Below, in pieces: positions 25,417-63,935 of a DNA stretch of 64,000 nt (position 1 is its first letter; each line of letters begins with the position of its first letter). Source of the stretch: Symbiodinium natans (taxonomy: Eukaryota > Sar > Dinophyceae > Suessiales > Symbiodiniaceae); NCBI GenBank assembly GCA_905221605.1, contig CAJNDS010002839.1:142501-206500 (forward strand), read 5' to 3'. Position numbers and translations under genes: made by a program. Under the pieces are notes generated by a model. That model was given only the letters and a program-made list of their open reading frames with translations, ran no database searches and was not told where the DNA came from.

Positions 25417-28400
25417 TCAAAAGCAGCTTTCTTGCCCAGCTGCGGCATCTGCAGCAGGAAGCGGATCCACATAGCTTCTGGGTGTCTCATTTGTGCTTGC
25501 CCCCGGCAAAGGTGGACCAGGCAGAGCCACAGGCACCACCGAAGAACCTTCGGCAACTTCCTCCGGCTTCTTGTCTTCGGCAGCGGTCTTCGCAGCCCCC
25601 GCTTTGCTTTCATCAGTAGGCGCAGGTGATGGCTTTGATTCTACACTTGCAGACGATGGTTTCGCCTTAGTGTCCGCCTCGACAACAGCCTCCGGCTTCT
25701 TGTCTTCGGCAGCAGACTTCGCAGCCTGCGCTTTGCTTGGATCCACAGGCGAAGGGGCTGGCTTTGATTCTGCACTTGCAGACGATGGTTTCGCCTTAGC
25801 ATCCGCCTCTGCAACAGCCTCGGGCTTCTTTTCTTCGGCAGCAGACTTCACAGCGCCCGCTTTGCTTGGATCAACAGGCGCGGGCGCTGGCTTTGAATCT
25901 GCGCTTGCAGACGATGGTTTCGCCTTGGCATCCGTCTCTGCAACAGCCTCCGGCTTCTTTTCTTCAGCAGCAGACTTTGCCGCAGACTTCGCAGCCTCCG
26001 CTTTGCTTGGATCAACGAGCGCTGGTGCTGGCTTTGATTCTGGACTTGCAGACGATGGTTTCGCCTTAGCATCCGCCTCTGCAACAGCCTCGGGCTTCTT
26101 TTCTTCGGCAGCAGACTTCACAGCGCCCGCTTTGCTTGGATCAACAGGCGCGGGCGCTGGCTTTGAATCTGCGCTTGCAGACGATGGTTTCGCCTTGGCA
26201 TCCGTCTCTGCAACAGCCTCCGGCTTCTTTTCTTCAGCAGCAGACTTTGCAGCAGACTTCGCAGCCTCTGCTTTGCTTGGATCAACGAGCGCTGGTGCTG
26301 GCTTTGATTCTGGACTTGCAGACGATGGTTTCGCCTTAGCATCCGCCTCTGCAACAGCCTCGGGCTTCTTTTCTTCGGCAGCAGACTTCACAGCGCCCGC
26401 TTTGCTTGGATCAACAGGCGCGGGCGCTGGCTTTGAATCTGACGATGGTTTCGCCTTGGCATCCGTCTCTGCAACAGCCTCCGGCTTCTTCACTTCAGCA
26501 GCAGACTTTGCAGCAGACTTCGCAGCCTCCGCTTTGCTTGGATCAACGAGCGCTGGTGCTGGCTTTGATTCTGGACTTGCAGACGATGGTTTCGCCTTAG
26601 CATCTGCCTCTGCAACAGCCTCGGGCTTCTTTTCTTCGGCAGGGGTCTTCGCAGCGCCCGCTTTGCCTTCATCAGGCGCAGGTGCTGGCTTTGCTGCTGC
26701 CGCTGCAGCTGCTGCCCCTACTGCTCCTGCTCCTGCGGAGGATGGCTTAGCTGTGGCATCTGCCTCTGCAGCAGTTCTCTCTGCACCGGTCTTGCTATCG
26801 TTTGGTCTTCCAACATCTCGCTCCGCATCCGGCCACGAAGACCTTCATCGGAAAGACTGGAATATGTGCAACACATGCACAACTGACACAACTGCAAAGC
26901 TTCCTCTCTTAAGTGTGGACAGCTGTTCCATGCTGTTCCCCAGCACGCGCCTCAATTGCTCAAGGTCCACCGCTCGCAGAAGCATCGCGACGACGTCCAG
27001 GGCACCTTGAGAGCCCCCCAAATTTTCTGAAATCGGCATCTTCAGAGAGATCTTAGTCGCTTATGCTCCCACATTCTTTGTCCCCAGCTGGCCTGCTTGC
27101 ACTGCGTAGTACAGCGCCGGGCGGCCGAAACCATCCACCTCCGACAAGGGATGCGACGTGCCCAAGAGAGACAATTTGGGACCCAATATGACCCAATTTG
27201 GGAGCCCGGGCCTGGCTGGCACTGCATCGCCTGTCTAGCAGCAACTGGAGGATCTCCGATCTCGACTTCTCCCCGGGATTTCCCATGGCATAGTAAAGAG
27301 CATTGCGATCCTGCGCATCCTGGCAGGCACTCGCATGCTCACGCAATCAGCAGCACACTGATCTGCATATATCTGCACTATGCAGTCTGACCTTGAGCAG
27401 GGTGATGTCCAGACTGCTCTGGAGAAGGATGCGGACAGTCTCGGGATCGTTGCAGCACGCCTCAGCAATTCAAAGCACTGAGATTTACACCGCAGATCTG
27501 CATGAGCATCATGAGCACAGCCGAGCTGCTAGATGGAAAGCATTCCTTGGCTTCACACGCCATGTTAATGATGTGAATGACATGAATGCATGGGAAGTCT
27601 GTTAAAATGGTGTAACATTTGCCAACTCAAGTCGAGACACCGGCCCTTCTGGTCGCTCTGCTGGGGCCGAGCCCGCTGCTGAAGGAGGCTACGCACGACT
27701 GCCCGGTGCCCATGCAGAGAGGCCATGGCCAGCGCCGTGGCACCGTTGCCTCGCAAGAGAAGACCCTGCAACATCTGCAGCAAGATTCTTGAGAGGGGGG
27801 GAGGGTGGAGAGGAGGAGGAGGAGGTGGGAGGCACTTCGCAGAGCCTTCCACCGCATGCACGTCGGCGCGGCGCTTCAAGAGAATGGCGCACACCTCCCG
27901 CAGACAAAGATGTTCTATGCATCGTCCTACATAGAAACCCCTTTCAAGGAAGAACCCATTCACCTTGAAGGAAAATTGAAATTGTAGTTCGGGTTCTGAA
28001 TATGTGCGTCCATACTGCTAAAATTTACGAAAGGTGGGGGGCGACTCCATATTGACTCCTCTTCCTGTCGCAGTTTCGGCCTCGGCATGCCCATGCTTGG
28101 CAGCGCAGTGAAGCGGCGTGCGGCCCTTTTGCTCCCGGGTTTCCAGGAGATCCGCAACCACAAGGTCCCCTTCATACTCAAGTTGTGTGGCGTGCTCCAG
28201 CACCCCCTGCACTTGCACAGCATCACCTGTCAGGTGACGGTTGCAACAGGTGTCACGGAACATGATGGAACATGCCAGCCCTCTTCCTGCCTCGGGCGGC
28301 CGCCGCCAAGAGCGCCTGGCCCAGCACCGACGCCGCGTCGTGGCGAAGCCGCTCGGAGGGCTCGAACTGTCTACGTCCTGCCACTCTCACACGCACTCAA

Positions 28401-30504: not shown

Positions 30505-30837
30505 TTATTGAGCTGTTGAACACCCAAACGTTGGGCCTGGCCCGGCTATAGCTTCGGCGACCTCCAACAGTGCATTGACGGGATCTATGGGGGCTACCGG
30601 CCCTTGAAACTTGAAATGAGGCAGGGCGCTCAGCTTGACCGAGGGCACCCCCTTCCTGACTCCTTCAGAGCTCAGAAAGGTGCTCGGCACACGATGGAAC
30701 AGACGTGCACATGTGTTCATCCGTCTACGGCCCTGTGATACAGAGGGCAAAGCTGCTTCTCTAAGATCACTTGGATGTCTCGGCTGCCGCGCCCGTGAAA
30801 CGGCCTGGGTCACTGCACGCAGCAAACGGAGCTCTTC
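30505..30837 (-). CDS. Unrecognised protein, C-terminal exon
   Basis: After a CAG|G acceptor at 30838 the minus frame reads EELRLLRAVTQAVSRARQPR, then RMNTCARLFHRVPSTFL, then FQGPVAPIDPVNALLEVAEA, ending in TAA at 30507-30505. The reading is continuous and protein-like for 110 codons, an unusually long exon for the region. No family was recognised. It lies just below the end of the 5-phosphatase gene. Confidence 0.5.
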   Translation of the reverse strand, partial: EELRLLRAVTQAVSRARQPRHPSDLREAALPSVSQGRRRMNTCARLFHRVPSTFLSSEGVRKGVPSVKLSALPHFKFQGPVAPIDPVNALLEVAEAIAGPGPTFGCSTAQ

Positions 30838-31195
30838 CTGACGAAACAAGGTGTTTGATCTGAAACAGTGGGCTCAAAAGCATCACACATAACGTCCAAT
30901 GAGTCCAATGTCTCTATTTTCGTTTCTTGATCACAGGCCCTTCAATCCACTCCAACACACATCTAGTCCTGCCGCTTTGGTCAGGGATGGGCGGCCCTGA
31001 CCAGTCTTCCACATCTACCATGACCTGCGACGCAGTGTGCATGCGAGCCAAGCTCACCACCGAAACTCAACCTAAAGCCCAGCACACGAGGCATCTGGTT
31101 GTGTGAAATGCGACATTACGAGGCGCCTGACGAGCAAAGAGCTTTCGCTGTGAAAGGATTCTGGGTTTCAGCACGTTGTTTCTGGCCCGGCAGGC

Positions 31196-32716
31196 TCAAC
31201 TAGCCTGGCTTCCGATACTCTTCCGACAGATCGGCGCGCCCAAATGTGCCTCGAACTGAGCGAAGACCGGACGATGGTCGGAGCATTGCAGGAAGGGTAC
31301 CTGCACTCTGCATTGCAGTGCATTGCCTCTGGAGCTTTGCAGGGCTACTTGCAATTGCCACGCATAAGTACTTCTGTTGATGACCGCGGGTCACAGAGTC
31401 GTAAGCCAGAGACTTGATATGAGGATCCCGACGCCACAAAATCCGGTCCTGTCGCTCGAATCTGCTAGCACGTGTCGGCCGGTGCCCAGGGACATGGTGC
31501 GACCCAGGGAAGCCGCATCCCAAGTCAGAATGTCTGTCCGTCCAACTCGGTACCCGCTGCTTCTTCGAAGAGTCGTAGATATCCTCACGATGAATCTGCT
31601 GCAACCACACTCCTGGCTGAGAGACTAAGAATTAAAACAAAAGGCAATCAGAGGCTCAGGTTCATGCCGAGTGCTTGTCGAACTTGTAGGTGGGCGGAAA
31701 GTTGATCTCTGCCTGCACACAGAGTAGGCCAAGACATACTCTGACACTCGGAGTTCTACAAACGTCTTCACTGCACTCTCTCCTGAGCATTCTCTCATAA
31801 GTGCTCCAACATCTGACTCTTGAACCATCTTTTGCATGATCTTGAAGCCTCCTCAAAGTCTGGCCAGAAACCAGCAGAACCACTGCCTTCCCAAAGAGAG
31901 GGCTCGAGCTTGGGGGCTTTCCAGGGCACTTTGGGAGCAGATTGCGAGTTCACGGATTTCACGTGAATTCGATCCACATCGGCTTCATGTCGGAGACCCC
32001 TTGAACCCTAAGCCTTGCACGTACCCATGTGACGGTCCGACGCTGTATCTTTCAGTGCCTGGATCGCCCTTCAACAGAGGTAGGAGCTGGTCTTTCGCCA
32101 GGCACTTGTCAAACTGCCTCAGCATGGTGCCATGCAGTGACATACAGTGCCCCAGGGCCTTTTGGCTCTGGAGCGAAGCTCGAAACCCAAGGTCGACACT
32201 TCTCCATGATCCACTCGTCCACTTGGGCACGGCTGGCATCGACACGTGTGTTCAGATCGCCCTGCCAACACTCCAGCATCTTCGACCGTTTCAATCGAAT
32301 GAAGATACATGAAGATCTGAGGGCTGGTGGATGCAACTTCACTCTGAGGGTCTTAGCATGCAGATGACGCAAGCAAGACAGTTTCTCTGGAGGTGAACTC
32401 AAGAGATGTTGCAACCCGGGCCATCACGAACACGCGGTCGTATTCCTCGTGGACGCCTTTCAGGTCCTGGAGTCGCACTCAACTTTGCGGCGCCTGGATG
32501 CCACGGACCGGGTCACTTAGACTCCTTCCGGCTGCGCAGCGGCGAGTCGGCGAGGATGCGGTGCAGGTTCTGCGTCCGCTCCTGTGGGTGTAGGACCCAG
32601 GAGTACCAATCCCACATGAATCTCATCGCAGCATGTCGAACCTTCATCTTGTTCGCATGCGCCGCAAGATGGGCATTCACAAAAAGCATGGTGGTGTTCC
32701 CCACGCGGAAAGACAC
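31196..32716 (-). CDS. Inositol polyphosphate 5-phosphatase, C-terminal part of IPPc domain
   Basis: Ten exons were read: 32716-32642 (VSFRVGNTT, FVNAHLAAH), 32581-32525 (ERTQNLHRILADSPLRS), 32445-32422 (EYDRVFVM), 32261-32203 (GDLNTRVDASRAQVDEW), 32117-about 32068 (FDKCLAKDQLLPLLK), 31840-about 31754 (MVQESDVGALMRECSG), 31712-31668 (INFPPTYKFDKHS), 31583-31539 (IYDSSKKQRVPSWT), 31448-31395 (DRILWRRDPHIKSLAYDS) and 31300-31196 (QCSDHRPVFAQFE, TGA). NAHLAAH, GDLN, FPPTYKF, PSWTDRILWR and SDHRPV are the IPPc signatures. The Asn of GDLN and the His of SDHRPV belong to the active site. The product should remove the 5-phosphate from inositol phosphates or phosphoinositides. Donors are GT, GC and GA. 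The domain starts abruptly at VSFR; its N-terminal half is at 41.7-41.0 kb. Confidence 0.93.
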
Positions 32717-33599
32717 CTTCGCAGTTCTGGCAAAGTCTGCACTCTCAGGTACCTCAGGTCCGATGTGGCAACCTATCTCTCAATGTGTCTCTGGGCTGGA
32801 TGACTCGAAAGAGCAGGCACAAGGCGGACTTTTTTCTCCCCAGGATCAGCCAAGAGCTCCTCAGCTGACCTCGGCGCAAGTCTCCTTTTTTCTACAAACA
32901 CTGAGCATCGTTACCGGAGTCACTAACCACACAACCCTACTCTCAGACGTAAAGCTGTCGGAAGGAAGTCTGCGAAGTTGTGTATGCTCGAGGCTTCAGA
33001 CTTCGACGTTGAGCCATAAATCCCTCTCGACATCCTCACATGGGGAACGTTAAGGACTGCTAGTACACAGCCAACTTCAACCTCACATCTTGCGGAAGCC
33101 CATTGCCAGCCATGGAGCTGGTTGGCCGGGGCCGCCTGTTTCAATGCACCCGTGACTGGGGATGCATATGGGCACAAGCCAACAGAACCTAACTAAACAA
33201 GCAGCACAGAACAATGAACGCTGCTGCAGTAGCGCTGAAGTCAAAAGCCGCGAACAAGCAAACACACCTTCTAAACATCAACCAAAAGCAGTCCGAAACA
33301 AAGCAAACCAGACAAAATGTCAACAAAAAGGGAGGAGGATTATCTGCCAAATTCTTCGGGGGTGGCACTGCGGCATTCTCTGCGGAGAAGGCACTCCAGG
33401 CATGCTCTGCGGGATTCTGTAGGGGCCCAGGGGTACATGGGCTACTCTGTGGGATTCTGGGGTGGGCCCTTAACCGGGATGCCAGAACTCTGGGGGATTC
33501 TTGCCGGATGTGAGAGTAGGAAAGCTGCCAGCTGACGATGAGGAGGTGTGCAGGGGGACACAAAGCCAGGCCCCTTTGTTCGAACAGATAACTAGCTTC

Positions 33600-33905
33600 C
33601 AACACCCGGGTTCGCAGCGGGCAGCCTTGGCCTTGGCCGGCATGCGCCGCACCTGAGCTTCGTGGTCGCTAGTCTCAAAACCTCTCTGAGTGCAACCCGC
33701 TGCCTGGTGTCCAACTGCACCCGGATCCAGGTCTGAGCAGGTTGCAAAACGTATCAACCAGTATACTAAACAGAAGCCACAGTGGAGCACTCCCCCACCT
33801 GAGTCGCTGCTGGTCGTCATGTCTGCCCAGCGCTTTCGTGGCTTCATTGCAGCCGCCTCGCTCGGGGCACAGGACGTCACGATCTCACTGGGAATCAGTG
33901 TCTCG
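33600..33905 (-). CDS. Unassigned exons, disordered protein
   Basis: The minus frame at about 33900-33797 reads SETLIPSEIVTSCAPSEAAA then MKPRKRWADMTTSSDSG and ends at a GT site. A second stretch at about 33690-33610 reads DHEAQVRRMPAKAKAARCEP. Both look like disordered coding sequence. They lie between the two halves of the 5-phosphatase domain. Not recognised. Confidence 0.4.
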
Positions 33906-34290
33906 CTCCCACGTGCCTGCCAGCTGCTCATCGCAGCACCTCCCCCAGAACCTGCCGCAGCACCTCCCGCATCTGCATCGCTGCTCTCCTCCGATGGCAT
34001 TCGGCAAACGGCAGCATCGAGAATACTCGCTGAAGGCGACGGCCTCGTTGCTTTCGGAGAGATCCTCCTCGTTTCGACGAAATGCGAAAAGCGAGACGTG
34101 GGGGCACCACACTTTCTGATATATGCTGTTATGCCTGCAGCAGCACTCTAACATGCACTGAACTCTTCTCACATCTCTACCTCAAAATGCTGAAGGCCTT
34201 GGCTCAGCAGCCCGAGCAGCCCGAGCTCAAGAGGGCTTTATTGAACTTTATTGATTATTGGCAAGGGCTTCGTGCCAAAGTATGGATTCT

Positions 34291-37200
34291 TCAGGATTTC
34301 CGTACAATTCGGCGCCGAGCGAGGCCCCTCTCCTCGCGGAACTCGTTGCTGCTACGGTGGCGAACGTCGAGATCTGAGTCGCTGCCTGAGCCAGCGTCTG
34401 ATTCCCTCAGGCTCTGACAGCAGAAAAGGCCAGGGATGGCCAGCAAGGCTTCCCGATGCTGGTGCCGACAAGGCACTGATCTCATGCCACTTCTTGCCCA
34501 GATGACTGGTGCGCATCGAGGGAACCTCGTCTGCCAACTCGTCCAGCTCCTCACGTCGAAACCATGTCAGGCACACTCCCACACAATTCTTAAATCACAT
34601 TCGTCTCCGCGACATGCCTCAACCACCCTTATCCCCACGCTCCTGGCGCAAGTCCTCTAGCTCCCCGCGGCGGTGGGCACGCAGGAGGCCTGTGTCAGTT
34701 GCCAAACGATGTCTGCCCTTCTTATCCCGCAGGAGCTGGCGGGCCTTTGCGGACTCGGGTGCGGATGCTCTCCGCCTTGAAAATTCAGTACTTCTCTTAA
34801 GTTGCAGAAAGTGGCATGGGGCGAGACACGGGCGAGACATGGGCGAGATGGCGAGACTGTGGCGAGACTAGAGGTCATGCCCCGGCTCCGGCATTCCCAG
34901 CCTGCGTCTCCAGAACCTCGGTCATCTCGCCAACTAGTCGCTCCAACTCGCCAGAGCGCATGGCGTTCACCACCCCGCGCCGCATTCGTGCAGAGATCTC
35001 GCGGAACTGGGCGGCTTTCGCCTCAAACTTCCGCTGAGCAGACTCCATCTCCTCGGCCAAGAATTGGAGCTCCCCCGAGCGCTTCATCTCGAGCAAGCTC
35101 TGGAGAGCACGCTGCTTAGCCGAGCGGCGCTCCTCAAACATGCAGAGAGTAGAGAGCAGCCGTAAAAAAAACATGCGCGATGAGATGTTCGATATGATGC
35201 GGATCTTCGCTGTGCGATGCTTCCGAGCCACGGTCTCGGCCTTGCGCGATGCCGCACCCGAGCCGGCACCCACTTGCGACTCGCTGCCGCGCCGCATCTC
35301 CTGCAAAGCGCAAGTCACAACATCCCACAACTCCAGGAGGGTCACACACACGTGTGCAGGCAGACAATCACATACAATCACACAGAGCCACATACACACA
35401 GCACTCGCTGGACGTGCAAAAAGCTATAGAAAACTGGACCCATCTTGAGATCAAATCTCCTCTGCCAGGTCTTCGAGCTTCCCAGCCCGCTTCATGCGAA
35501 GCAAGCTCTCGAGGGCGCGCTCCTTCAGCCGCTGGAAGTCGTCTGCCTGCCGTTCCACCTCTCCAGGCATCTCTACAAGTCACCGTCGAAGAAACGGATC
35601 GGCACAGGAAGAGAGGACGCTCCGAGGGCTCCGAGGGCTCCGCGAGCCTCCTGCGCCAGGTCACCTGCCACCATGTGCAGCTCGCCAGTTCGGTGCGCCG
35701 TGAGCATGGCAGCTTTGAACTTCTCCTCCGACGTCCCAAAAACCAAGTACAACAGGCCCGGCTTCAGAAACTTCTCTATAAAGTGTTCCTCTCTTTCTTC
35801 TCAAGTCAAAAATCCTTCAGGTTCTGCAGGTCGGATGCGGAGCGCTCCATGTCTTGCTGGTCGCTGCGCAGCTTCTCGAGCAGGGCCTGCAACTTGCCAG
35901 TCCTCCGGAGTTCTCTCACCTAACGACTTAGCGACTTAACGACTCTCTTAAACTCTTCTTGAAAGAGGGACACACTTAACAGGACTTAAGCGCGTGAGGG
36001 ATGGGGTAGATTGCAGGGGGGTTTGTGGGGGCATGCTGGGCCTGTTGGCTTGCAGGAGGCTCCAAAGCGGGGTGCTTCGCTGCACGCCTCCAAGCAAAGG
36101 CCCCCCAATGCCCGCAAGGGGCCATGGACATCAAAGGGAGACTTGCCGCATTCCACTGGGGCCGAGACCACGGCTTTGCAACTGCGATTCCTGTTGAGGA
36201 CAGCCGGTCGCTGTTGCATAGCTTCTTGCATGCACACTTTGGGCCTGGACATCTTGCCGCCAAGCATCCGGCTGCGTCCCATCAGATGAAGGGCGGCCCT
36301 GTACGTCATCTGGGCTTGGGAAGGCTTGAGCATCCTTGGGTCGAGGACACATTGTACAGGTCGCATCACAACGACCACATACGACCACGTCAAAGGCATC
36401 AGAACACGTCAATGTGTCCAAGGCTCCTCATGAGATCCCGAGCCATCTAAGCCCTCACGACCCGGGGCTGCCCCGGCGTCGCCACCGTCTTCGCTGGGCC
36501 GGACTGGCCGCCGCCACGCACGGCCTGAGCCCCACATTTCGGCAACCTCTCGCATCGATCATATTTGGCAGCACACACATTGATCCGGTACTCCAGGGCT
36601 GCCCACGGGAGTCTGTGAGTGTGGCCTGGGACGCGCACAGAAGCGGCGAAATCCAACAGCTGTCATGTTACAAGCTACCCAAGCTACGCAAGCTACCCAG
36701 TGATGCCGAGGCCTCTGTGCTTGCAGCGTCCGTCTTGCTCTCGAAATCCTTTCGAAGTCCATGAAGCTCTCCTCGCCGATGAGCCCGCAGCAGACCTGTC
36801 CCAAGGACGCAGACTACGGACTGCCTGACTGCTTGTGTACACTGCTTGTACTTGTACTTCTTCATCTGCACAATGCTGGCCTTGTCGCAAACGACTGCGG
36901 GTTGTCTCCGCCTGCCATGGCATGTCACCGGTCTTAGTCCATGGCTGCCCCCTTTGTGCCCATCTTTCGCACCAATCGCGAAAGACTGCGCGGGCCTGCG
37001 GGTCGAGGACCTCCATTTCGCGCAGGAGCCGTCCCAAGTCATCCGCTCGGGCAGAGGCGACTCGCTGCGAAGCCCCTTTCAAGTAGGCCGCTGAGGAGAA
37101 GAACTTCGCCTGGGCCAACTCGAGCTCCTGGGGGGCATATGAGAGAGGGCCCCTTACCAAATGGAGAGAGAGAGAGAGCATGGTCTCAATGTCAAGAATC

Positions 37201-38079
37201 CTGCAGAAGCAGCTGCACTCGCCAAGGTTTCATTTCTTTCGAAACGTCTCCTTCGCTTGTAACATCGACATCGCCTGGAACAGTCCATGTAACTTCACAA
37301 CAAGACCTTCTTGCAGCACACTCGACGCTGCACACCGCTGCTGCCTTCTGCATCACCCAGAAAGCTGAACCTTGCAGCACTGTATTGACTTCACAATATT
37401 TCGAGGAACTGCGGATATTCTTCTAAAGGATGTGTCGAGTATTGTCGAGTCCACATGTGAGCACGTCAAGGGGGCATAACACCTCCTTGTGCCGGGCGCT
37501 GAGGACTCGAGACAGTATCATTTCCCACGCATTTTGGGGTCCAGTACCATCCAGAGGAGCACTTAACTGAAGTTGCGACTGCATCGGACTGCTCGAATGC
37601 AGATACTATGAGGCTATGCATTCATTGGCTTCGAAGTGCCCCATCATGGACGACGAGCTCGGGATGCTTCACTTCTGAGCCAGGAGCGTTCGCAAAGACT
37701 CGCTGCGCTCCTGCAAGATTTGTCACGTTAGTACATTTCCTTGCAGGCTTCGCCGTGACTCGTGATATGCATCCATGTGTGCCTTCCCGCGCTTTAGACG
37801 TGCAGTCTCGATGCGCTCGATGAGGTGCTTGAAGCTGCGTTCGTGGGCATCGACCTGACCGATTCAAGACCAGCGCTCTCCCACAACACAGGTGAGCTTG
37901 CAGAAATTTGTAGCAACTTGTAGAGCAAGGTACAAACCGAATCGCACAGATCCTTGCTCTGCCTCTGCAGCAACGTCTCTGCCGGAGGCTTGTAGATGCT
38001 CCAGGTCTGTGGTCTTCGCATGTACTGCATTCACCATGGCAGTCTTCAGCGTCTCCTCCACCAAGCACAATGCCGAGCC
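34291..38079 (-). CDS. Helical-repeat protein (about 40-residue GEL repeat), novel
   Basis: Short exons each carry a helix-turn unit around R-x-G-[EK]-L-x-x-L. They include about 38079-37940 (AVHAKTTDLEHLQAS), 37854-37783 (FKHLIERIETARLKRGK), 37127-about 37000 (ASARADDLGRLLREME), about 36790-36746 (LLRAHRRGELHGLRK), 35919-about 35818 (LRRTGKLQALLEKLR), 35725-35648 (LTAHRTGELHMVAGDLAQE), 35558-35460 (LLRMKRAGKLEDLAE), 35300 onward (EMRRGSESQVGAGSG), 35132-34902 (two units, MKRSGELQFL and MRSGELERL), about 34700-34625 (LLRAHRRGELEDLRQ), 34549 onward (ELDELADEVPSMRT) and a last exon to TGA at 34293-34291 (acidic Ser-rich, then basic). Where exons join exactly (35648|35558, 35460|35300) the donors are GC or GA. 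Spacing between units is 38-41 residues. No known family was recognised. The 5' limit is unknown. Confidence 0.7.
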
Positions 38080-38089
38080 GCCCGGTGAT

Positions 38090-38091
38090 CC

Positions 38092-38143
<52 letters not shown>

Positions 38144-38190
38144 CGATGATGATGATGATGATGATGAGGATGATGATGACGATGTTACGG
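38090..38190. repeat. (ATG)n trinucleotide microsatellite
   Basis: ATG/ACG/AGG triplets over about 95 bp. The minus frame gives a poly-His tract that is in frame with, and directly upstream of, the first helical-repeat exon, so it may be coding. The plus frame gives poly-Asp. Confidence 0.93.
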
Positions 38191-38399
38191 CATATGCGGC
38201 AATAGCATGCTGTCCGGGATCCTCAGAACCCGCCTGCGCTGCCTACAGCAGAGCCGGAGTCCCCAGAACATCACAAGGCTTTAGTGACCAACTCGCAACG
38301 GCGTGGAGGCTTCCCACACTGGCCGTCCTTCAGAGCCGACATGTCTGCATTCGCACGACGTATCTCCTGCAGGCCACAGCCAAGCATGAGATTCCCCTC

Positions 38400-40500
38400 A
38401 CAGCGTGTGTGTCTCTGTGATTGAATTAATCATGGAGCTTCGTGTGGTCTCGGGTGTTTGCTTGGATTTGTTTGGCACCTGTTCGGAAGCGCCGGCAGCC
38501 TTGCCTCGAGTATCTGCCGCTCTTCGCGGTTGACGCTTCGGCGCCGCCATCGCTTGGAGCGTTGCTTCCGAAGGGGGCTTCCTGGCGGGGGCGAGCATCC
38601 AGCTGAATAGTGAATAGTATACTCCGGCCAACAAAACTCGCTGGAGGCAGCAGCGCCAAGGGCCTTCATCGTCGTCATCCGCATCCATCGCCCCCTCTGC
38701 GTGGTCGTCGATTTTCTCGGAGCTCGAAGACCGGCTGAAGATCTGATGCATGATCCCTTAGTCCGGCTTCATCTTCAGAAAGCCAGAAAGCCGTACGAAT
38801 GCACAGTGCCATTCACAGTGCCATTCGGGAACTGTCCCCCAAGGGCTCGACTCGGGGCCTCCAAGCCGGGAGGCAGCCAGGGCTCCTAAAGCAATGCGAT
38901 GCAAACCATCAGACACTTGCCATATCTTGCCATCGCTGTGTCAAACTTAGGTGTGTTAAGGCAGCTCGATTTTCGGAATCCTTGGGCTGAACACCAGCAG
39001 TGCCAAGTCCGGGTCCTCCCGCGCCAGGGAGTCGGGGGCCAATCCTGCGCTCATCAAGTTGGGGACATGGCTGTAGCAAGGCAAGTCAGCCAGGGGCGAC
39101 ACCCTTCCCAGGAGCCGACAAAGGCGTCTCCTTCACCAAGCAGCAACCCTGCTCTGAAAGAGGCCCTACTGGGATTTGGGATTGCACAGCCTGGTGGTCG
39201 GCTTCCCACTTGCGCTCGAGCTGCGCGAGCATCATCTCGACCTCGCCCGAGGGGGGGGGAGATCGACGTTGATACTTCTTGTGCTGAAGAAGCGCTGTGC
39301 CTTGCTCGCACACTCGTCCGCCGGAGGCGAAGAGTGGCCCTTGACGAAGTGAGCTATTGATACAAGTAGCAAATGCTCATGCCATGCCGGATGGACGGCG
39401 GCTTGCGTTGAGATCGCCTCTTATTGACTGACACTGTTGGCGGGGGCCTTCCCTGAAACCACGTCCTGAAATCGTCTCACCACTTACAGGCGAGTTAAAA
39501 CCAGGCCAGCTAAAACTGAAACAGCAACCAGCGATCTCACCGAGCAGCTTCGCGCATGTCCCACAGCTTTGCTGCACGATCGAGCGTTCGGCATCGAAGT
39601 AGAGCCTCGAACCTGCACGAACTCTTCGACCAGACGATGAATCGTGCCACTGAGCAAGGCGCCGAACGCATCCCAGTCAGCCTTGCCTTTGGAACAAGGT
39701 CTTCGGCTCTTCGGGAACAAACATCCCATCAAGGACGCCTGCGAGAGGTGGGCTCAAGTCTCCTTACAAGAACTGTCAGCAAATGCCACCGACGCACCAA
39801 AAACATAATAGAAAAAACTTGGACCCTGGCAGCCACCAATGTCTACCCGACGAGGGCGGCCATCGTAGCCGCATCGAAGGAACACAGCCTTCACCTGAGT
39901 GAGTCCCATGGCAACGTGGAAAGAGTACCCCTCCACAAAAACATGCAAAATCGGAAGAGAGTGGCACAAGATGCGCAGATCTTCGTGAAATCTGGGGAGA
40001 TATGACAGCCTGAAGCTTAAGGGATGTAGTGAGAAGTGAGCTTTCAACTCGTCTTTCTTCCCTTAGCCGAGGGCGCCCACTCCAGCCGAAAAGCGCCTCC
40101 CGCTGCCCGCTTGCCGGGTAGCGGCTGCATCGCCTGGTCGTAGAGCAGCGGCGCACCGAAACCTTACGATGCAGCACATTTTCTGCCGAATGCATTCAAT
40201 ACGGCACTCTGCATGCTCTCAGCTCGGGTCACAAAAAAGACTCTCTGAGGTTTCGGACCCCAGCCATCTTGGACTTCAAAGACTTCTAGGAGCTGACCTT
40301 CATCGACCTCGTGATAACCAGGCACGGCCCAAAGGACACCAGCCATGTACAGCACTGGACATGTGTTTGGGGGCCTTTGCCAGGAGCGCCGACAGCTCTT
40401 GCTGGTAATCTCCGCACAGATCTGCCTTGGAACGTGATGCCGCAATGCTGCAGCACCAGATTGAACCAAAGACCGGCAAGGACCAGCAATCAACAACGCA
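38400..40500 (-). CDS. Unrecognised multi-exon gene(s)
   Basis: Minus-strand stretches with good protein character: about 40440-40360 (KADLCGDYQQELSALLAKAP), about 40350-40170 (VLWAVPGYHEVDEGQLLEVF, PQRVFFVTRAESMQSAVLNA), about 40130-40055 (AMQPLPGKRAAGGAFRLEWA), about 39940-39840 (HVAMGLTQVKAVFLRCGYDG), about 39690-39590 (DWDAFGALLSGTIHRLVEEF), about 39270-39180 (SGEVEMMLAQLERKWEADHQ), about 38745-38660 (SSSSEKIDDHAEGAMDADDD) and about 38600-38410 (ARKPPSEATLQAMAAPKRQP). None matches the IPPc fold. They may be one gene, or the 5' part of the helical-repeat gene. Exon joins were not solved. Confidence 0.45.
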
Positions 40501-40959
40501 GCTGCAGGTCAAGTTGCCTGTATTCTTTTGAATTCTGGTCCAGCACATACGAACTGGCGTCCGGACGCAGGAAGAACGAGGTCATCCTCAATGACTCAAT
40601 GGTCTATCGGAGATGTGGGGTTCGATGCCTTGGAAACACCTTTTGAAACGAAGGCCTGGAAGCCCAGGCGCGACATCACATTGCGAGTGACTTGCACGCT
40701 CTGGTTGGGTAGAAGCACTTCTTAGCTGCTAAGCACCGAACACCTACAACACTTTACAAGACCTTCTCGCACTTAGCAGAAGGAAGTGTAGGCGCCGCTC
40801 AATGTCCATGTAGAGATCTGCATCTAATGCCCCTACAAGAATGGGTGCTTGCGTCTTCTATGCTTTGAGCCAAGCACGTCAGCTTGAGCTCAAAGCTTGG
40901 CTGGAAGCAGGGACCCGCCAAGACCCATGATTCGCCCTGCTGCACTCCGGAATTTGGGC

Positions 40960-41658
40960 CTGGGTGCCACCCTTGTTGCCAACCAGGTTGGCAAAGCCTG
41001 TCGCAACCTGTGTACTGCAAGGGCAGCGCCACCAAGTAGCACCTTCTTTGTCAACAAAACTGCTTGGGCAGCACCGTGCCTGACAGGTTCGCGCTTCCCA
41101 GCAGTATCTCCACAGGGACCGATGGATGAAGACCATGACGTGAATAGCACCTTGGAAAGGTCAGGTCCAGACGCATCTCGTAGTCGAAGGAAATCCCTTG
41201 TCTGTTCTAAGCATTGCAAGTTGGGCTCACCGCTCATATTGTGCGATCCGATCATTCGAAAGTCCTCACACAGCCATAAATCTCAACACCGATGCCATAA
41301 ATACTGGTAATGGCATGCTGGAAACATCTAGCCAAGTCTGCATCAGCTGCGAGCGCACTTGCTATCCCTACGAGGCACTCCGGGTCCTCACCGAGGTGGC
41401 GGCACATCTGGCTCTCCCACCTCGCCTGGGCCAACCGACACGCACAGGCTGTGATCTGCCACATGGTTTCTGTCAAATACTGTTATATATATATATATAT
41501 GTGTGTGTGTGATATATATATATATATATATATATTTTTTTGTTGTAAGTGTGTAACTGTCTCTATTGCATAGATTCGCAAAGGCCTTGCTGGACCATAT
41601 GAGCGACTTCTCGATTGTTCGCTCGCACTCGCAGGTGCCGACGACATAAATGTGGTGC
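40960..41658 (-). CDS. Inositol polyphosphate 5-phosphatase, N-terminal part of IPPc domain
   Basis: Exon 41658-41586 reads HIYVVGTCECERTIEKSLI, the IPPc YVIG-x-QE segment in the variant form with ECERSIEKSL. A GC donor joins it in phase to the exon from 41425 (RWESQMCRHLGEDPECL). Exon 41150-41080 reads AIHVMVFIHRSLWRY; it joins by a GC donor to exon 41007-40960 (VATGFANLVGNKGGTQ), which holds the invariant GNKGG. The join between the 41425 exon and 41150 was not solved. A possible first domain exon (RVFFGVWN) lies at about 42048-42011. The last exon ends CAG|GC in phase 0. The next strands of the fold (VSFR...FVNAHLAAH) are found only 8.2 kb away, at 32716, also in phase 0. No local continuation was found. 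Confidence 0.87.
41484..41542. repeat. (TA)n / (TG)n microsatellite
   Basis: TA run, short TG run, second TA run. It lies in the intron between the first two solved IPPc exons (41585-41426). Confidence 0.9.
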
Positions 41659-42589
41659 CTGCAGCAGGTTGAGCGGACTCGGAAGTTCGGAGGCGCGCCT
41701 TGCGCCTCCTTCCTTGCACCGTTCCACGCATCTGACGACTTGTTTACATCCTTCGGCCTTGGGGATGTAGGCACCCACTGGTTCAAGTTCGCTGGAGCCT
41801 GGCTCAGCTGCGATTCTGCTGGCACTCTGCCTGTGCGTCATAGCGCGGCCGTTGTTCCCAAAGCTGACCTGCCTTCTTGCCGTGCAAATTCCAGACTCCA
41901 CAGAAGAGGCGGACTGCCTCGTGTCGACTGGAGTCTTCCATGAACGGAGCACGTTCCCGAGCTAACAGCCTGCTTGCTGCCACCGCCGAGCGAGGCTACT
42001 TCGGCCTCATCCAGCATTCCAAACTCCAAAGAATACCCTTTCCAAACCAAAGTCGGGAGAATCCCCCGAATCCCCCGCCTCTTCCCAGCGATGGAAGGCT
42101 GTCTTGCTGCTTGGAGAGGCAGGAGAGGTGGGCTCCTCAAGACGAAACCAGGCTGTCGCAATCCTTCCCGGTGCTTTCCGACTCTGAGCTTGGGGCAGGG
42201 ATCGCCACAGGGCTCTCTCCTTCAAATCAACAAAGACAACGGCACAAATCCCGGTTGCTTCAAGGATGTTTCAAAGCCAGGGGGCCTTCAGACGGCGGGG
42301 AGGCATCTTCCACCTCACTGCCCGGAGAGGCTGCCTCATCGGATCATGGATGGTAGAGACGAGCGCCCACGGAACGTTGCGCTATCACGCTTCGCCTGGC
42401 CGATGGCGCCCGGCGGAAGCTCCTTGACAATCGTGCACCAAACAATGCAAGGCCATGCAGGATATTGTAGCATCATCAGCAAGCAGGGCTCATTGTGCAG
42501 TCCTGCATGGCCTTTCTGTCAGGCGACTGCTGCCGGGGCCTTGAAGCCTCCACGTGCACCTGGGGATCACATCTTGGGATCACATGCGA

Positions 42590-43665
42590 ATTGCGTTGGG
42601 AATCGCCCTTCGCCGAACCTCCCGCGCTTTCTCCCCAGCGTCTTCCAGCTCAGCCTGAGCCCGGGCTCCGCTACAAACACGACCCTTTTGGCACGCCAGT
42701 TTTTGGGACTTTAGTGACTCGGACAGTAGGCACAGTTGGGCGAAAACACCGAGGAGGCCTGGGTTTGCCGATCCGGAGGTGTCTCGTCTGGCTGCGCCTG
42801 GCTTGGATACACGGCTTCTGGTTATCAACAGAAATGAACAACAGTTCTTCCGCTCTCAGACTTCACCTGAACGACGTAGTCATACTGCGGAGGCTGAGTT
42901 TCCCCAGCCGCGGGAGCCGGCGCCTGTGGCAGAGTTCTCCATCCAGGTACACTGATCCTTAGGTCCTTGGCTTCATGTCAGAGCTTTGGCAGCGCTTTCG
43001 CACCTTTCGCGTCTTGTCCCGGACAGACTCCAAGCTGGGAGACCTGAGAAGGCCGAGTCATGCTGAGGTGGACGTATGCTTCAGTCTTGGTAACAGCGAC
43101 GTGGAGCAACTCTGATGTCAGTGAATGTATGTAACCCACATTACGTACGTATAACATACAGCTATGCAACTATACGATTTGTATTTTTACTGGGTCGCGC
43201 GTGCTTTCGCCGAATGGCCTCTGAGATGCATCGTCATGGTCGTGCTCTGTGATCCACCCTGACGGCACCTTCGCTGCACACCAAAGGCACTTCGCTCAAG
43301 CAAGCTGTATGTCCAGCCTCATCATCAACATAGACAGCATGCTCCTCCTGCGAGCCAAACAAAGTGGAACTCGCGTACCACTACACGCGGCCACTTTCAA
43401 GAACCCACTGCAGTAAGTCTGCACGAAGATGTTGGGATCCCAATCACACAGCGAGATACAGCAAGATGAAAACACAGCAGCTCAAGGAGTCCACCTGCGC
43501 GCCCGGCAATGCAGACTTCACCTGCCATCTCTCAACCACACGGGGGCCCCGGGCTTTCGTATGCAACCGCACAACAACGGGATAAACAAATGGGATAACG
43601 TAGACCCACTTCCGTCCCACCTCAGAGCTCTCTATGACAGGCTGAGCCACGGCCGCTGCGGCCAT
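42590..43665 (-). CDS. Unassigned exons upstream of the IPPc gene
   Basis: Minus frames at about 43665-43480 (VIESSEVGRKWVYVIPFVYP, RVVERWQVKSALPGAQVDSL), about 42940-42840 (LPQAPAPAAGETQPPQYDYV, VQVKSESGR) and about 42660-42590 (AELEDAGEKAREVRRRAIPN) read as protein. They could be 5' exons of the 5-phosphatase or of another gene. No domain was recognised. Confidence 0.38.
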
Positions 43666-59689: not shown

Positions 59690-59845
59690 GTTCGGGGGGG
59701 GGGGTTCGAACCTGGGTTCAACCCAGGTTCGAACTCCCGGCCCTCCGGGGGGGGGCGGGGGGGGGGGCGGGGGGGTGGGAACAACAACATCGAGAACCTG
59801 GGTTTAACCTGGGTTCAACCTGGGTTCAACCCAGGTGCAATTTTT
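59690..59845. repeat. GTTCGAACCTGGGTT palindrome and G-runs
   Basis: A perfect 15 bp inverted repeat with a one-base loop lies at about 59705-59735. Poly-G runs (59695-59704 and 59748-59777) are next to it, and four more AACCTGGGTT / AACCCAGGTT half-sites extend to 59840. It marks the left edge of the tandem unit. Confidence 0.85.
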
Positions 59846-61965
59846 TTCCGAGTTGAGCGAACAAATGCGATCCACCGTCTTGGTGTTTGGGTTGTGAAAA
59901 CCGTGCCTCTGTACTGGCACCACTGATGGCCCTCTTGGCCCTAATGTACAGGGGAGGAAACCACCTCCTCCTAAGCTACCATCCTCTTTGGGATGCTACC
60001 AGAGGTTGTACCTCATGAGAGGAAAGAAACCTCCTGGCAAAAGCTCCTCAGGTTGCTGGTGCAGGGTTGCAACCGTGAGAGAAGGGGCCAGGGGTGTGCT
60101 CTGGCAGTGAGGATGAACCTCAGCTTGCATCCTCTTCGGGATGCTACCAGAGGCTGGTACCTCATGAGAGGTTAGGAACCTCCTGACAAAAGGTCCCTCA
60201 AGGCCTTTGGTGCACTTTGTGCAGGCTGTCAGAGGGAGGCGGTCAGGGTTCCGCTCCGGTAGCGAGGATGGTACCTCTGTGCTATCCTCGCTGGGAGGAT
60301 GCAACCTCCTAGGCTGCTTCAGCTGGTGGTTCCCTGAGTGGGACCAACTCCCAGCGAGGTTCCTCCATGATGTTGCCGAGGGGTCGCGCGAGCCCATAGT
60401 CTGGCGACGGCAACTCATAGAGGACTTTCATGTCGATGAGAGCCTCGACAAAGACCATGTCCATGGTTTTTAATTCCCACAGCAACAAGCTTGCCAGCAT
60501 GGGGATGCTGGCATGGTGGAGGCTGACCCACCTCCTGACTTTGCTGCTCAGGGTGGGTGAGTCTTGGTCAAACCACCGGAAGAACGAGACGAGCCGGGTC
60601 AGGCTGGGGAAGCCGTAGTGCTCTCTGGTGCCCCAGTTGGCCACGTCCAAACTTGTTAACCGGTGGTATTTGGCCATTCCCAGGTACCCCCAATTATGCT
60701 CCCCTTGGTCGCGGGGATGGAGGTACCCCTCCAAAAAACGAAGTCCACACCACAACCAGATCAGAATGCACATCTGGAGGAACGACCCGTCCGGTGTCGG
60801 GCGGACTGGGGCCACCATCCGCTCGACGGTGTAGGCCCTCAGGTCCTGGGCTGGGAGCCCAGGGACCTCGACCTGGAGGGTGAACCTCCGGCAGACCTGG
60901 GGCCAGGAATCGAGGGACAGCGCAAACAGCTCCCACTCGAAGTGGTGGGCATCTTGGGGGCCCACCTTCAGGACCCAGCGGGGTTCCCGGTCAAGGGTAT
61001 ACACCACCCTTGACCCTCCCCGAGCAAGCATGGTCAGGTACCTGATCTTGCCCTGGACCTCATACGAGGCCTGGTCGGGCATCTGGTTGGCCAGGCCATT
61101 ACCTCGACCGCGGCTGCTTGCTTGGAGGATAAGGTTACCTCCCTCGTTGTGGGGCCTGGTGCCCGTGTTAAGGTCTGCCGGGGGCTCCTGGTCCTCTTGG
61201 TCCTGCTCCTCCACTGGGGCAGGCTCCGGACTGGTTTCGGAGGCATCCCCTCCTGAGCTTTGGGCTTGGTCCCATTCTCGGGAGGCCTCCCACCAGCTGG
61301 ATTGCTGCCATCCCTCCCATTCTTCGTGCCCCCATCCAGGGTGGGCGGCACGTCTGGCTGGCGGTGGCATGGGTGGGACCCTTTGGGCTGCCTCGGAGAC
61401 AGCCTGCTGCCTCTGAGCCCTGGCTTTCTTACCCGGCCTGTTCCTCTGCCTCTGCAAGGTGTAGTCATCTACGAACCTTTGTGCCGGGGTCCTGCGTTCG
61501 AGCAGCAACTCTCCCTTGCCTTGGGCTTTGCCGGGCTGCCTGCTCGGAGGAGGAACCTCCCTCTTTCTATTCTCCCAAGCCCTTGCCTCCGGAGGCTGCC
61601 CCTCCCCTGCCGGTGTTGTGGGTGGCAGTTCCTGGTTGTTTCGGCAGGGGCTACATTGGACCCCTCCTGGGTGTCGTCGCCGGTGGGGTGGTGTGGAGCC
61701 TCTGGCTCCGGGGGGCCCCACCCTCCGGCTTTCCTTCTTCACTCTTCACTGGAGCCTCCTGGGCCTCCTGGCCCTGGGAGGGCAGGTCCTCCTGCTTCAT
61801 TTCCGCCATTGCGCACGGGGGGGTTGGGCCCTTCTACTGGCTTGGCTGCCTGCGCTGGCTGAAAAAGGCTGCGGATGGGATTTGTCGTTTCTGGCTTGAA
61901 CTGCGACTTACATCGGGGGTCCAACCCAGGTTCAACCTGGGTTCAACCCGGGTTCAGAACCCGGG
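59795..61965. repeat. Tandem unit, copy 1
   Basis: Copy 1 of a tandem pair. Both copies share, in order, the AACCTGGGTT half-sites, a run of T, a conserved leader with GAGTTGAGCG, two imperfect ATGCTACCAGAGG repeats, the kinase-like ORF antisense, and the end sequence GCGGATGGGATT. Corresponding points are 2142 bp apart at the left and 2003 bp apart at the right. Confidence 0.9.
60309..61809 (-). CDS. Intronless kinase-like ORF, copy 1 (frame broken near start)
   Basis: A single 477-codon frame from 61742 to the stop at 60309. The N-terminal third is Pro/Gln/Arg-rich and disordered. Then come LARGGSRVVYTLDREPRW and VLKVGP, like a glycine loop and lysine strand; HNWGYLGMAKYHRLTSLDVA, placed like the catalytic Asn and metal-binding Asp loops; and an all-helical end (MLASLLLWELKTMDMVFVEA). 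This suggests a degenerate protein-kinase fold. The matching ATG (61809-61807, MAEMKQEDLPSQ) is in another frame that hits a stop after about 50 codons, so the copy is frameshifted or starts later. The absence of introns contrasts with every neighbour and suggests a retro-copied or mobile origin. Confidence 0.65.
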
Positions 61966-63935
61966 TCAGAATCCAGGTTCAATTTTTTCCGAGTTGAGCG
62001 AACAAATGCGATCCACCATCTTGGTGTTTGGGTTGTGAAAACCGTGCCTCTGTACTGGCACTACTGATGGCCCTCTTGGCCCTAAAGTACAGGGGAGGAA
62101 ACCACCTCCTCCTAAGCTACCATCCTCTTTGGGATGCTACCAGAGGTTGTACCTCATGAGAGGAATGAACCTCCTGGCAAAAGTTCCTCAGGTTTCTGGT
62201 GCAGAGGGTGCAAACCGTGAGAGGAGGGGCCAGGGGTGTTCTCTGGCAGCGAGGATGAACCTCAGCTTGCATCCTCTTCGGGATGCTACCAGAGGCTGGT
62301 ACCTCAACAGAGGTTAGGAACCTCCTGACAAAAGGTCCCTCAAGGCCTTTGGTGCACTTTGTGCAGGCTGTCAGAGGGAGGCGGTCAGGGTTCCGCTCTG
62401 GTAGCGAGGATGGTACCTCTGTGTAATCCTCGCTGGGAGGGTGCAACCTCCTAGGTTGCTTCAGCTGGTGGTTCCCTGAGTGGGACCAACTCCCAGCGAG
62501 GTTCTTCCATGATATTGCCGAGGGGTCGCGCTAGCCCATAGTCTGGCGACGGCAATTCATAAAGGACTTTCATGTCGATGAGAGCCTCGACAAAGACCAT
62601 GTCCATGTTTTTTCATTCCCACAGCAACAAGCTTGCCAGCAAGGGGATGCTGGCATGGTGGAGGCTGACCCACCTCCTGACTTTGCTGCTTAAGGTGGGT
62701 GAGTCTTGGTCAAACCACCGGAAGAAAGAGACGAGCCGGGTCAGGCTGGGGAAACCGTAGTGCTCTCTGGTGCCCCAGTTGGCCACGTCCAAACTTGTTA
62801 ACCGGTGGTACTTGGCCATTCCCAGGTACCCCCAATTATGCTCCCCTTGGTCGCGGGGATGGAGGTACCCCTCCGGAAGGCGAAGTCCACACCAGAAGCA
62901 CATCATAATGCACATCTGGAGGAATGAACCGTCCGGCGTCGGGCGGATGGGGGCCACCATCCGCTCGACGGCAAAGGGGGCATCTTGGAGGCCCACCTTC
63001 AGGACCCAGCGGGGTTCCCGGTCGAGGGTATACACTACCCTAGAATGGTCAGGTACCTGACCTCGCCTTGGAGGGCCGGTCAGGCATCTGATTGGCGAGG
63101 CCATTGCCTCGACCACGGCTGCTTGCTCGGAGGACAAGGCTACCTCCCTCTCGGCTGCTGGCCTGGTCCCCGTGTTAGGTCTGCCGGGGGATTCTGGGCC
63201 TGCTCTGCCACGGGGGCAGGCTCTGCGCTGGTTTCGGAGATATCCTCCTGACCTCTCATCCTGTTCCCAGTCTCCACCCTCCGGACCAACGCTCGTCCCC
63301 CCATTGCTGCCATCCTTCCCACAACCAGGGTTGGCAGTGGCGGTGGCCTGGGTGGGACCCTTTGGGCTGCCTCGGAAACAGCCTGTTACCTCTGGGCCCT
63401 GGCTTTCTTGCCCGGCCTGTTTCTTTGTCTCTGCAGGGTGCAGTCATCTACGTACCTCTGCGCCGGGGTCCTGCGTTCCAGCAGGAACTCTCCCTTGCCG
63501 TGGGCTTTTCCGGGCTGCCTGTTTGGAGGAGGAACCTCCCTCTTTCTGCTCTCCCAAGCCTTTGCCTCCGGAGGCTGCCCCTTCCCTGCCGGTGCTGTGG
63601 TTGGTGGTTCCTGGTTGCTTTCCTCCTTCGCCTCGGCAGGGGCTGCATTGGAGGAGGCACTGGCTTGGGAGGGTAGCCCCTCCTGAGTCGGCGCTGGTGG
63701 GGTGGTTCAGAGCCTCTTGCTCCGGGGAGGCCCCACCCTCCGGCTTTTCTCCTTCACTCTTCAGGGCCTCCTGGCCCTGGGAGGGAAGGTCCTCCTGTTT
63801 CACTTCCGCCATTGCGCACAGGGGGGGCCCCTTCTACTGGCTTGGCTGCCTGTGCTGGCTGAAAAAGGCTGCGGATGGGATTAGTTGTTTCAGGCTTGAA
63901 TTGCGACTTACAGCGGGAATCCTTTTTAAAACTAC
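61920..63935. repeat. Tandem unit, copy 2
   Basis: The second copy begins with the half-sites AACCCAGGTTCAACCTGGGTT (split by variants, 61920-61985) and ends after GCGGATGGGATT near 63880. It is about 139 bp shorter overall than copy 1 because of internal deletions. Confidence 0.9.
62450..63812 (-). pseudogene. Kinase-like ORF, copy 2, degraded
   Basis: Starts with an intact ATG at 63812-63810 (MAEVKQEDLPSQGQEALKSE), but that frame stops at 63444. The rest of the homology is in other frames with further breaks. Relative to copy 1 it has lost the Gly-rich loop and about 33 residues between the lysine strand and the VERMVAP segment. The C-terminal part, with the HNWGYLGMAKYHRL loop, is intact in a frame of 62613-63137. 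A kinase-type nucleotide site can no longer form, so it is a pseudogene. Confidence 0.8.

Follow-up and report, generated by a model that had tools for sequence, protein, structure and literature searches.

Our findings indicate that the inositol polyphosphate 5-phosphatase domain that appears split in two in a 64,000-nt stretch of the Symbiodinium natans genome (contig CAJNDS010002839.1, positions 142,501 to 206,500; hereafter the window) belongs to one INPP5E gene, the host, whose 8,243-nt intron 21 houses the guest, a likely independent same-strand gene, and is likely spliced out whole (probability about 0.9). The guest is likely an old gene-within-gene that public annotations have either missed or wrongly fused to the host; that the assembly is wrong here, or the gene damaged, is very unlikely.

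The host was delineated with P0001, the public S. natans INPP5E protein of 511 aa. Spliced mapping, for which GT, GC or GA donors, AG acceptors and introns of up to 9,000 nt were permitted, placed all 511 residues on the minus strand in 33 exons running from 43,665 to 30,813, followed by TGA, and this exact map includes the poorly conserved N-terminal region. The locus divides as follows:

Positions 40960 to 43665, minus strand: INPP5E host exons 1-21, with the start codon at 43665 and the N-terminal half of the phosphatase domain (N-half) ending GNKGGTQ at 40960 (P0001 map, Pfam PF22669).
Positions 32717 to 40959, minus strand: host intron 21, 8,243 nt, with a GC donor and an AG acceptor in phase 0 (P0001 map).
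Positions 30813 to 32716, minus strand: INPP5E host exons 22-33, with the C-terminal half of the domain (C-half) and a C-terminal CCVQ, the next codon being TGA (P0001 map).

The initial annotation, made from the letters of the window, had set the edges of the interruption at 40960 and 32716, both in phase 0 and 8243 bp apart, and the P0001 map agrees to the base, with the donor CCAG/GCCC after 40960 and the acceptor GCGAAG/GTGT before 32716. It had also proposed that the two halves, once joined, form an uninterrupted domain, and this is borne out by Pfam PF22669: the hand-spliced N-half alone matched at 6.4e-12 (46 bits, profile 3-118), the C-half alone at 3.9e-42 (145 bits, profile 121-288), and the joined halves at 7.2e-61 (207 bits, profile 3-288 of 288), which is the complete domain. 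Neither half has a partner nearby, as had been noted, and tblastn with P0001 gave no second good copy in the window among the matches listed. The join GNKGGTQ/VSFRVGNTT is present as such in P0001, and the GNKG motif runs straight into the next strand in 60 of the 62 matches P0002-P0063, the exceptions being P0021 and P0055. Judged by its sequence, the host is an inositol polyphosphate 5-phosphatase with a complete PF22669 domain. Alignment of 16 relatives revealed invariant columns, among them cysteine 508, four from the end, and we take the terminal CCVQ to be a CaaX-like end, as in INPP5E; the INPP5E label itself is provisional. The remaining 31 host introns measure 49-225 nt, and the donors number 19 GC, 8 GT and 5 GA, such that GC or GA stands in place of GT in 24 of 32 on a map that permitted only these three.

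Protein records from relatives bear directly on the fate of this intron in host mRNA. Against the fused gene model P0130, P0002 shows 284 of 284 residues identical in the stretch ending at GNKGGTQ and 203 of 205 beyond it, and lacks the 496-residue guest block between them; in the same manner, P0007 agrees with P0131 in 279 of 281 and 198 of 199 residues, with 649 residues absent at the same point. The contigs behind P0002 do not exceed 1,729 nt, which leaves no room for introns like those of the host beside its 1,467 coding bases, and P0007 comes from a contig of 1,563 nt. Because both proteins match the two flanks without the guest block, an intron with edges as in the window is, on the evidence of these paired records (P0002/P0130 and P0007/P0131), removed precisely and whole in two relatives. 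In S. natans too, donor 40960 would be paired with acceptor 32716 across all guest splice sites, a join that the public protein P0001 carries.

The guest segments, at 40676-33700, fall inside the intron (40959-32717), with the exact guest ends uncertain. The exon map was made by hand, with anchors chosen with splice rules in mind, and contains the following parts:

Positions 33470 to 40676, minus strand: guest gene, with a predicted ATG at 40676 (MSRLGFQ/DDLVLPASGRQF) and an uncertain end between 33700 and 33470 (colinear tblastn with P0131, P0132, P0121 and others; 31 hand-placed segments).
Positions 39541 to 40586, minus strand: exons of the guest N-terminal domain (SGRQFVCAG, DGWGFGAPLLY, GAFRLEW, MFVPEEPKTLF, RFEALLRCRTLDRAAKLW; tblastn and hand-placed segments).
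Positions 36697 to 38366, minus strand: guest helical module 1, diverged, with approximate exon placement (P0132 tblastn, hand-placed segments).
Positions 34476 to 36074, minus strand: guest helical module 2, well conserved (P0132 446-714, E 1.0e-89).
Positions 33799 to 33991, minus strand: guest C-terminal exons with the KPRKRWADMTTSSDS motif (P0132 737-794, E 2.7e-15; P0131 857-898, E 1.0e-4).

The guest, spanning about 40,676 to 33.5 kb, thus reads as an N-terminal domain, an acidic linker, two helical modules and the KPRKRWADMTTSSDS motif. The N-terminal domain, which may resemble SH3, was matched in tblastn by P0133 (55-90 at 40163-40056, E 6.7e-8), P0131 (359-387 at 40163-40077, E 2.6e-5) and P0132 (13-152 at 39906-39461, E 6.8e-10), and module 1 by P0132 (269-378 at 37377-36993, E 2.7e-15; 377-400 at 36798-36727). 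Module 2 shares 90.5% identity with P0125 of Durusdinium trenchii (404-477) across 74 residues. The initial annotation had described a helical-repeat gene and at least one further unknown gene in this interval; both exon sets are colinear with P0131 and again with P0132, each a single protein, and there is therefore one guest gene, two or more being ruled out. Searching eight guest-containing proteins against Pfam at E up to 10 gave nothing above the cut-off except the host domain in P0131 and P0133, no guest relatives were found among viral contigs, and the AlphaFold model of the guest relative P0128 is mostly helical at low confidence (mean pLDDT 49.6). The guest is predicted to encode a helical-repeat protein and is likely an independent gene. 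A transposon or introner origin of intron 21 is disfavored: no inverted repeats of at least 18 nt occur at its ends, and a Pfam scan of the 8.2 kb in the three minus-strand reading frames gave nothing at E up to 1.

A protein search with the helical exons recovered nine proteins among 7,992 scored candidates, including records named S. pilosum, Effrenium voratum, Durusdinium trenchii and Cladocopium goreaui; of five further guest matches, four lie on contigs of 1,233-3,494 nt and one is labelled as a Trinity product. The phosphatase part is absent from eight of the nine (P0122-P0129) and present in the ninth, P0121. No guest-only protein among them is labelled with the genus Symbiodinium, and the stand-alone relatives that carry a genus name come from other genera. 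The UniRef name of P0126 starts 'Inositol-1,4,5-trisphosphate 5-phosphatase', yet its sequence has no such domain, and the name might signal a further fused model among its cluster members.

The initial annotation had suggested comparing gene order in related dinoflagellates, and on doing so the nested order recurs, whole or in part, in five gene models. Nineteen proteins were recovered with a query that joined N-half, guest and C-half, and guest and host parts occur together in 5 of the 142 proteins collected. P0130 (s3417_g6, presumably S. tridacnidorum) and P0131 (symbB, which we take to be Breviolum minutum) have the order N-half, guest, C-half; P0121 (S. pilosum), P0132 (S. microadriaticum) and P0133 (Polarella glacialis) have the guest followed by the C-half, without the N-half, and in these three the C-half begins at the identical exon edge, with VAF or VGF. 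In tblastn, P0131 is colinear with positions 42120 to 31250 of the window, which take in both host halves and the guest, and P0132 with positions 39906 to 30965, covering guest and C-half, the few extra matches of these two being between repeated modules. Matches of at least 26 bits lie within the locus on its minus strand in 25/25 cases for P0130, 20/21 for P0131, 26/27 for P0132 and 26/29 for P0133, with 1 of 21 for P0131 and 1 of 27 for P0132 lying elsewhere in the window. The N-half model P0064 has unrelated residues directly after GNKGSTQ, as expected where a predictor cannot cross the same intron, and P0084, the Polarella N-half model, stops one exon earlier. P0133 contains the guest helical region twice, in near-identical blocks at 270-615 and 649-1001, a duplication or a model artefact. 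The layout is common to gene models of Symbiodinium, symbB and Polarella; if it arose once, the nesting would be older than the split between Polarella and Symbiodiniaceae, a dating drawn from gene-model order in which Polarella shows the guest and the C-half only.

The fused gene models are most likely artefacts of gene prediction: gene finders would either pass over an intron of 8.2 kb or link guest exons to those of the host. All five fused records are of the genome-predicted kind, with ncbi or eukprot gene names, and none comes from jgi, lgn or mmetsp; the junctions into the C-half are preceded by five different sequences in the five models, which fits such chaining. The result would be a recurring annotation error, in which five public models fuse the guest to the phosphatase and those of S. 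pilosum, S. microadriaticum and P. glacialis lose the first half of the domain.

That five gene models are written this way could also be taken at face value, with the guest exons forming an alternative cassette that in some transcripts places a helical domain midway through the phosphatase domain. We regard this as improbable: such an insert would break up the phosphatase core, no two of the five junctions are alike and three of the models have no N-half, no fused record is of the transcript type while 60 of 62 host matches are uninterrupted, and eight guest relatives have no phosphatase part. Less probable still is an assembly join or a recent rearrangement that split the phosphatase gene, which the initial annotation had offered as one of two options. 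The missing partner near either half and the 49-225 nt of the other host introns would agree with such an event, but the same layout occurs in other species' gene models, the splice edges and phase fit exactly, and the window contains no N.

The other option, a giant intron hosting nested same-strand genes, is retained for the nesting, given that the join is found in independent protein records and the order recurs, and amended in gene number, with one guest in place of several. A variant of it, in which the genes are nested and the S. natans guest copy is a decaying pseudogene, is unlikely, though less so than the fused protein. Two protein searches (296-943 aa and 574-1,825 aa ranges, about 8,000 candidates scored in each) returned no S. 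natans guest protein, and module 1 is diverged; against decay, the coding segments stand in order from the predicted start to the conserved C-terminal motif, and module 2 retains its close identity to the D. trenchii protein. We favor the reading of one interrupted phosphatase gene with a single, likely independent guest in its intron.

Dinoflagellate genes lie in unidirectional clusters whose multi-gene transcripts can be divided by spliced-leader trans-splicing, according to PMC11453091 and PMC7245778. Under a mechanism of this kind, host and guest would share one unidirectional pre-mRNA. Splicing of exon 21 to exon 22 over the guest would yield the host mRNA, and the guest mRNA, polyadenylated separately, would acquire its 5' end through spliced-leader trans-splicing to an AG within the host intron; either protein could then come from one pre-mRNA. 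Trans-splicing inside the intron is probably how the guest obtains its mRNA. A more tentative proposal, which we put forward as possible and somewhat doubtful, is that of an ancient interlocked pair, in which the one pre-mRNA would undergo either long cis-splicing (INPP5E) or leader trans-splicing (guest), each excluding the other, and this interlock would have bound host and guest to each other from a time before Polarella and Symbiodiniaceae diverged. The window contains no spliced-leader relict within 3 mismatches of the 21 nt and no copy of the last 12 nt of the leader within 1 mismatch. The sole TTGGCTCAA in the window, which we take to be the 3' part of the dinoflagellate spliced leader, is a 9-nt match at 40873-40865 on the minus strand, in the host intron and 190 nt before the predicted guest start; 0.93 such matches are expected per window, this one was singled out post hoc, and the match does not extend to the longer leader.

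In the minus-strand stretches scanned on either side (53.6-43.7 and 30.8-20.9 kb), the neighbors with Pfam matches lie on the same strand as the host:

About 51.7 kb, minus strand: carbon-nitrogen hydrolase, a sub-threshold match (Pfam).
About 49.6-46.0 kb, minus strand: exons of EMP70 (endomembrane protein 70), the next recognised gene upstream (Pfam).
Near 28.1 kb, minus strand: ankyrin-repeat exon, downstream of the host (Pfam).

Elsewhere in the window, a direct duplication of about 2 kb pairs 59795-60829 with 61934-62971 (94.5% identical over 1,040 columns) and, in its second part, 60947-61917 with 62978-63917 (78% over 1,014 columns), and a tandem array at 25550-26708 consists of long repeat units that overlap a repetitive open frame, with self-matches of 77-92% at many offsets.

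If our interpretation is correct, a same-strand gene within a gene can last across dinoflagellate genera despite gene order that reportedly diverges strongly, and the locus would offer a defined place to study how cis-splicing and spliced-leader trans-splicing share a transcript. Intron-nested genes as a kind are already known; of this conserved, mis-annotated pair, a limited literature search found no description.

Among 5-phosphatases of solved structure, the host shares the catalytic domain over its full length, with OCRL-1 as the best match (PDB 4cmn, 1.8e-40) and the 72 kDa 5-phosphatase (PDB 2xsw) ranking behind it as fourth of 18 solved relatives found by sequence. The host carries the database name INPP5E and shares the cysteine four from the end, yet OCRL-1 scores best among the solved relatives, and the host gene differs from known inositol polyphosphate 5-phosphatases in being broken by a gene-bearing intron. 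Introner-type and repeated introns of dinoflagellates occur in the same genome group, and noncanonical donors are found in the host as well; intron 21 differs from them in that its length comes from a gene and in having no terminal inverted repeat of at least 18 nt. The closest parallel is the set of nested genes in two P. glacialis isolates, for which PMC7245778 gives 4,898 (8.4%) and 3,359 (6.5%) genes nested in introns, with full-length transcript support. The initial annotation had judged a giant intron unusual, which holds against the other host introns, but by these percentages the class is commoner than had been supposed. There, as here, multi-exon genes of a dinoflagellate from this order contain whole genes within their introns. 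The cited passages give numbers and a single example containing many genes for photosynthesis, whereas the guest described here is one multi-exon gene that occupies the same position in one host in several genera and that annotations fuse or omit.
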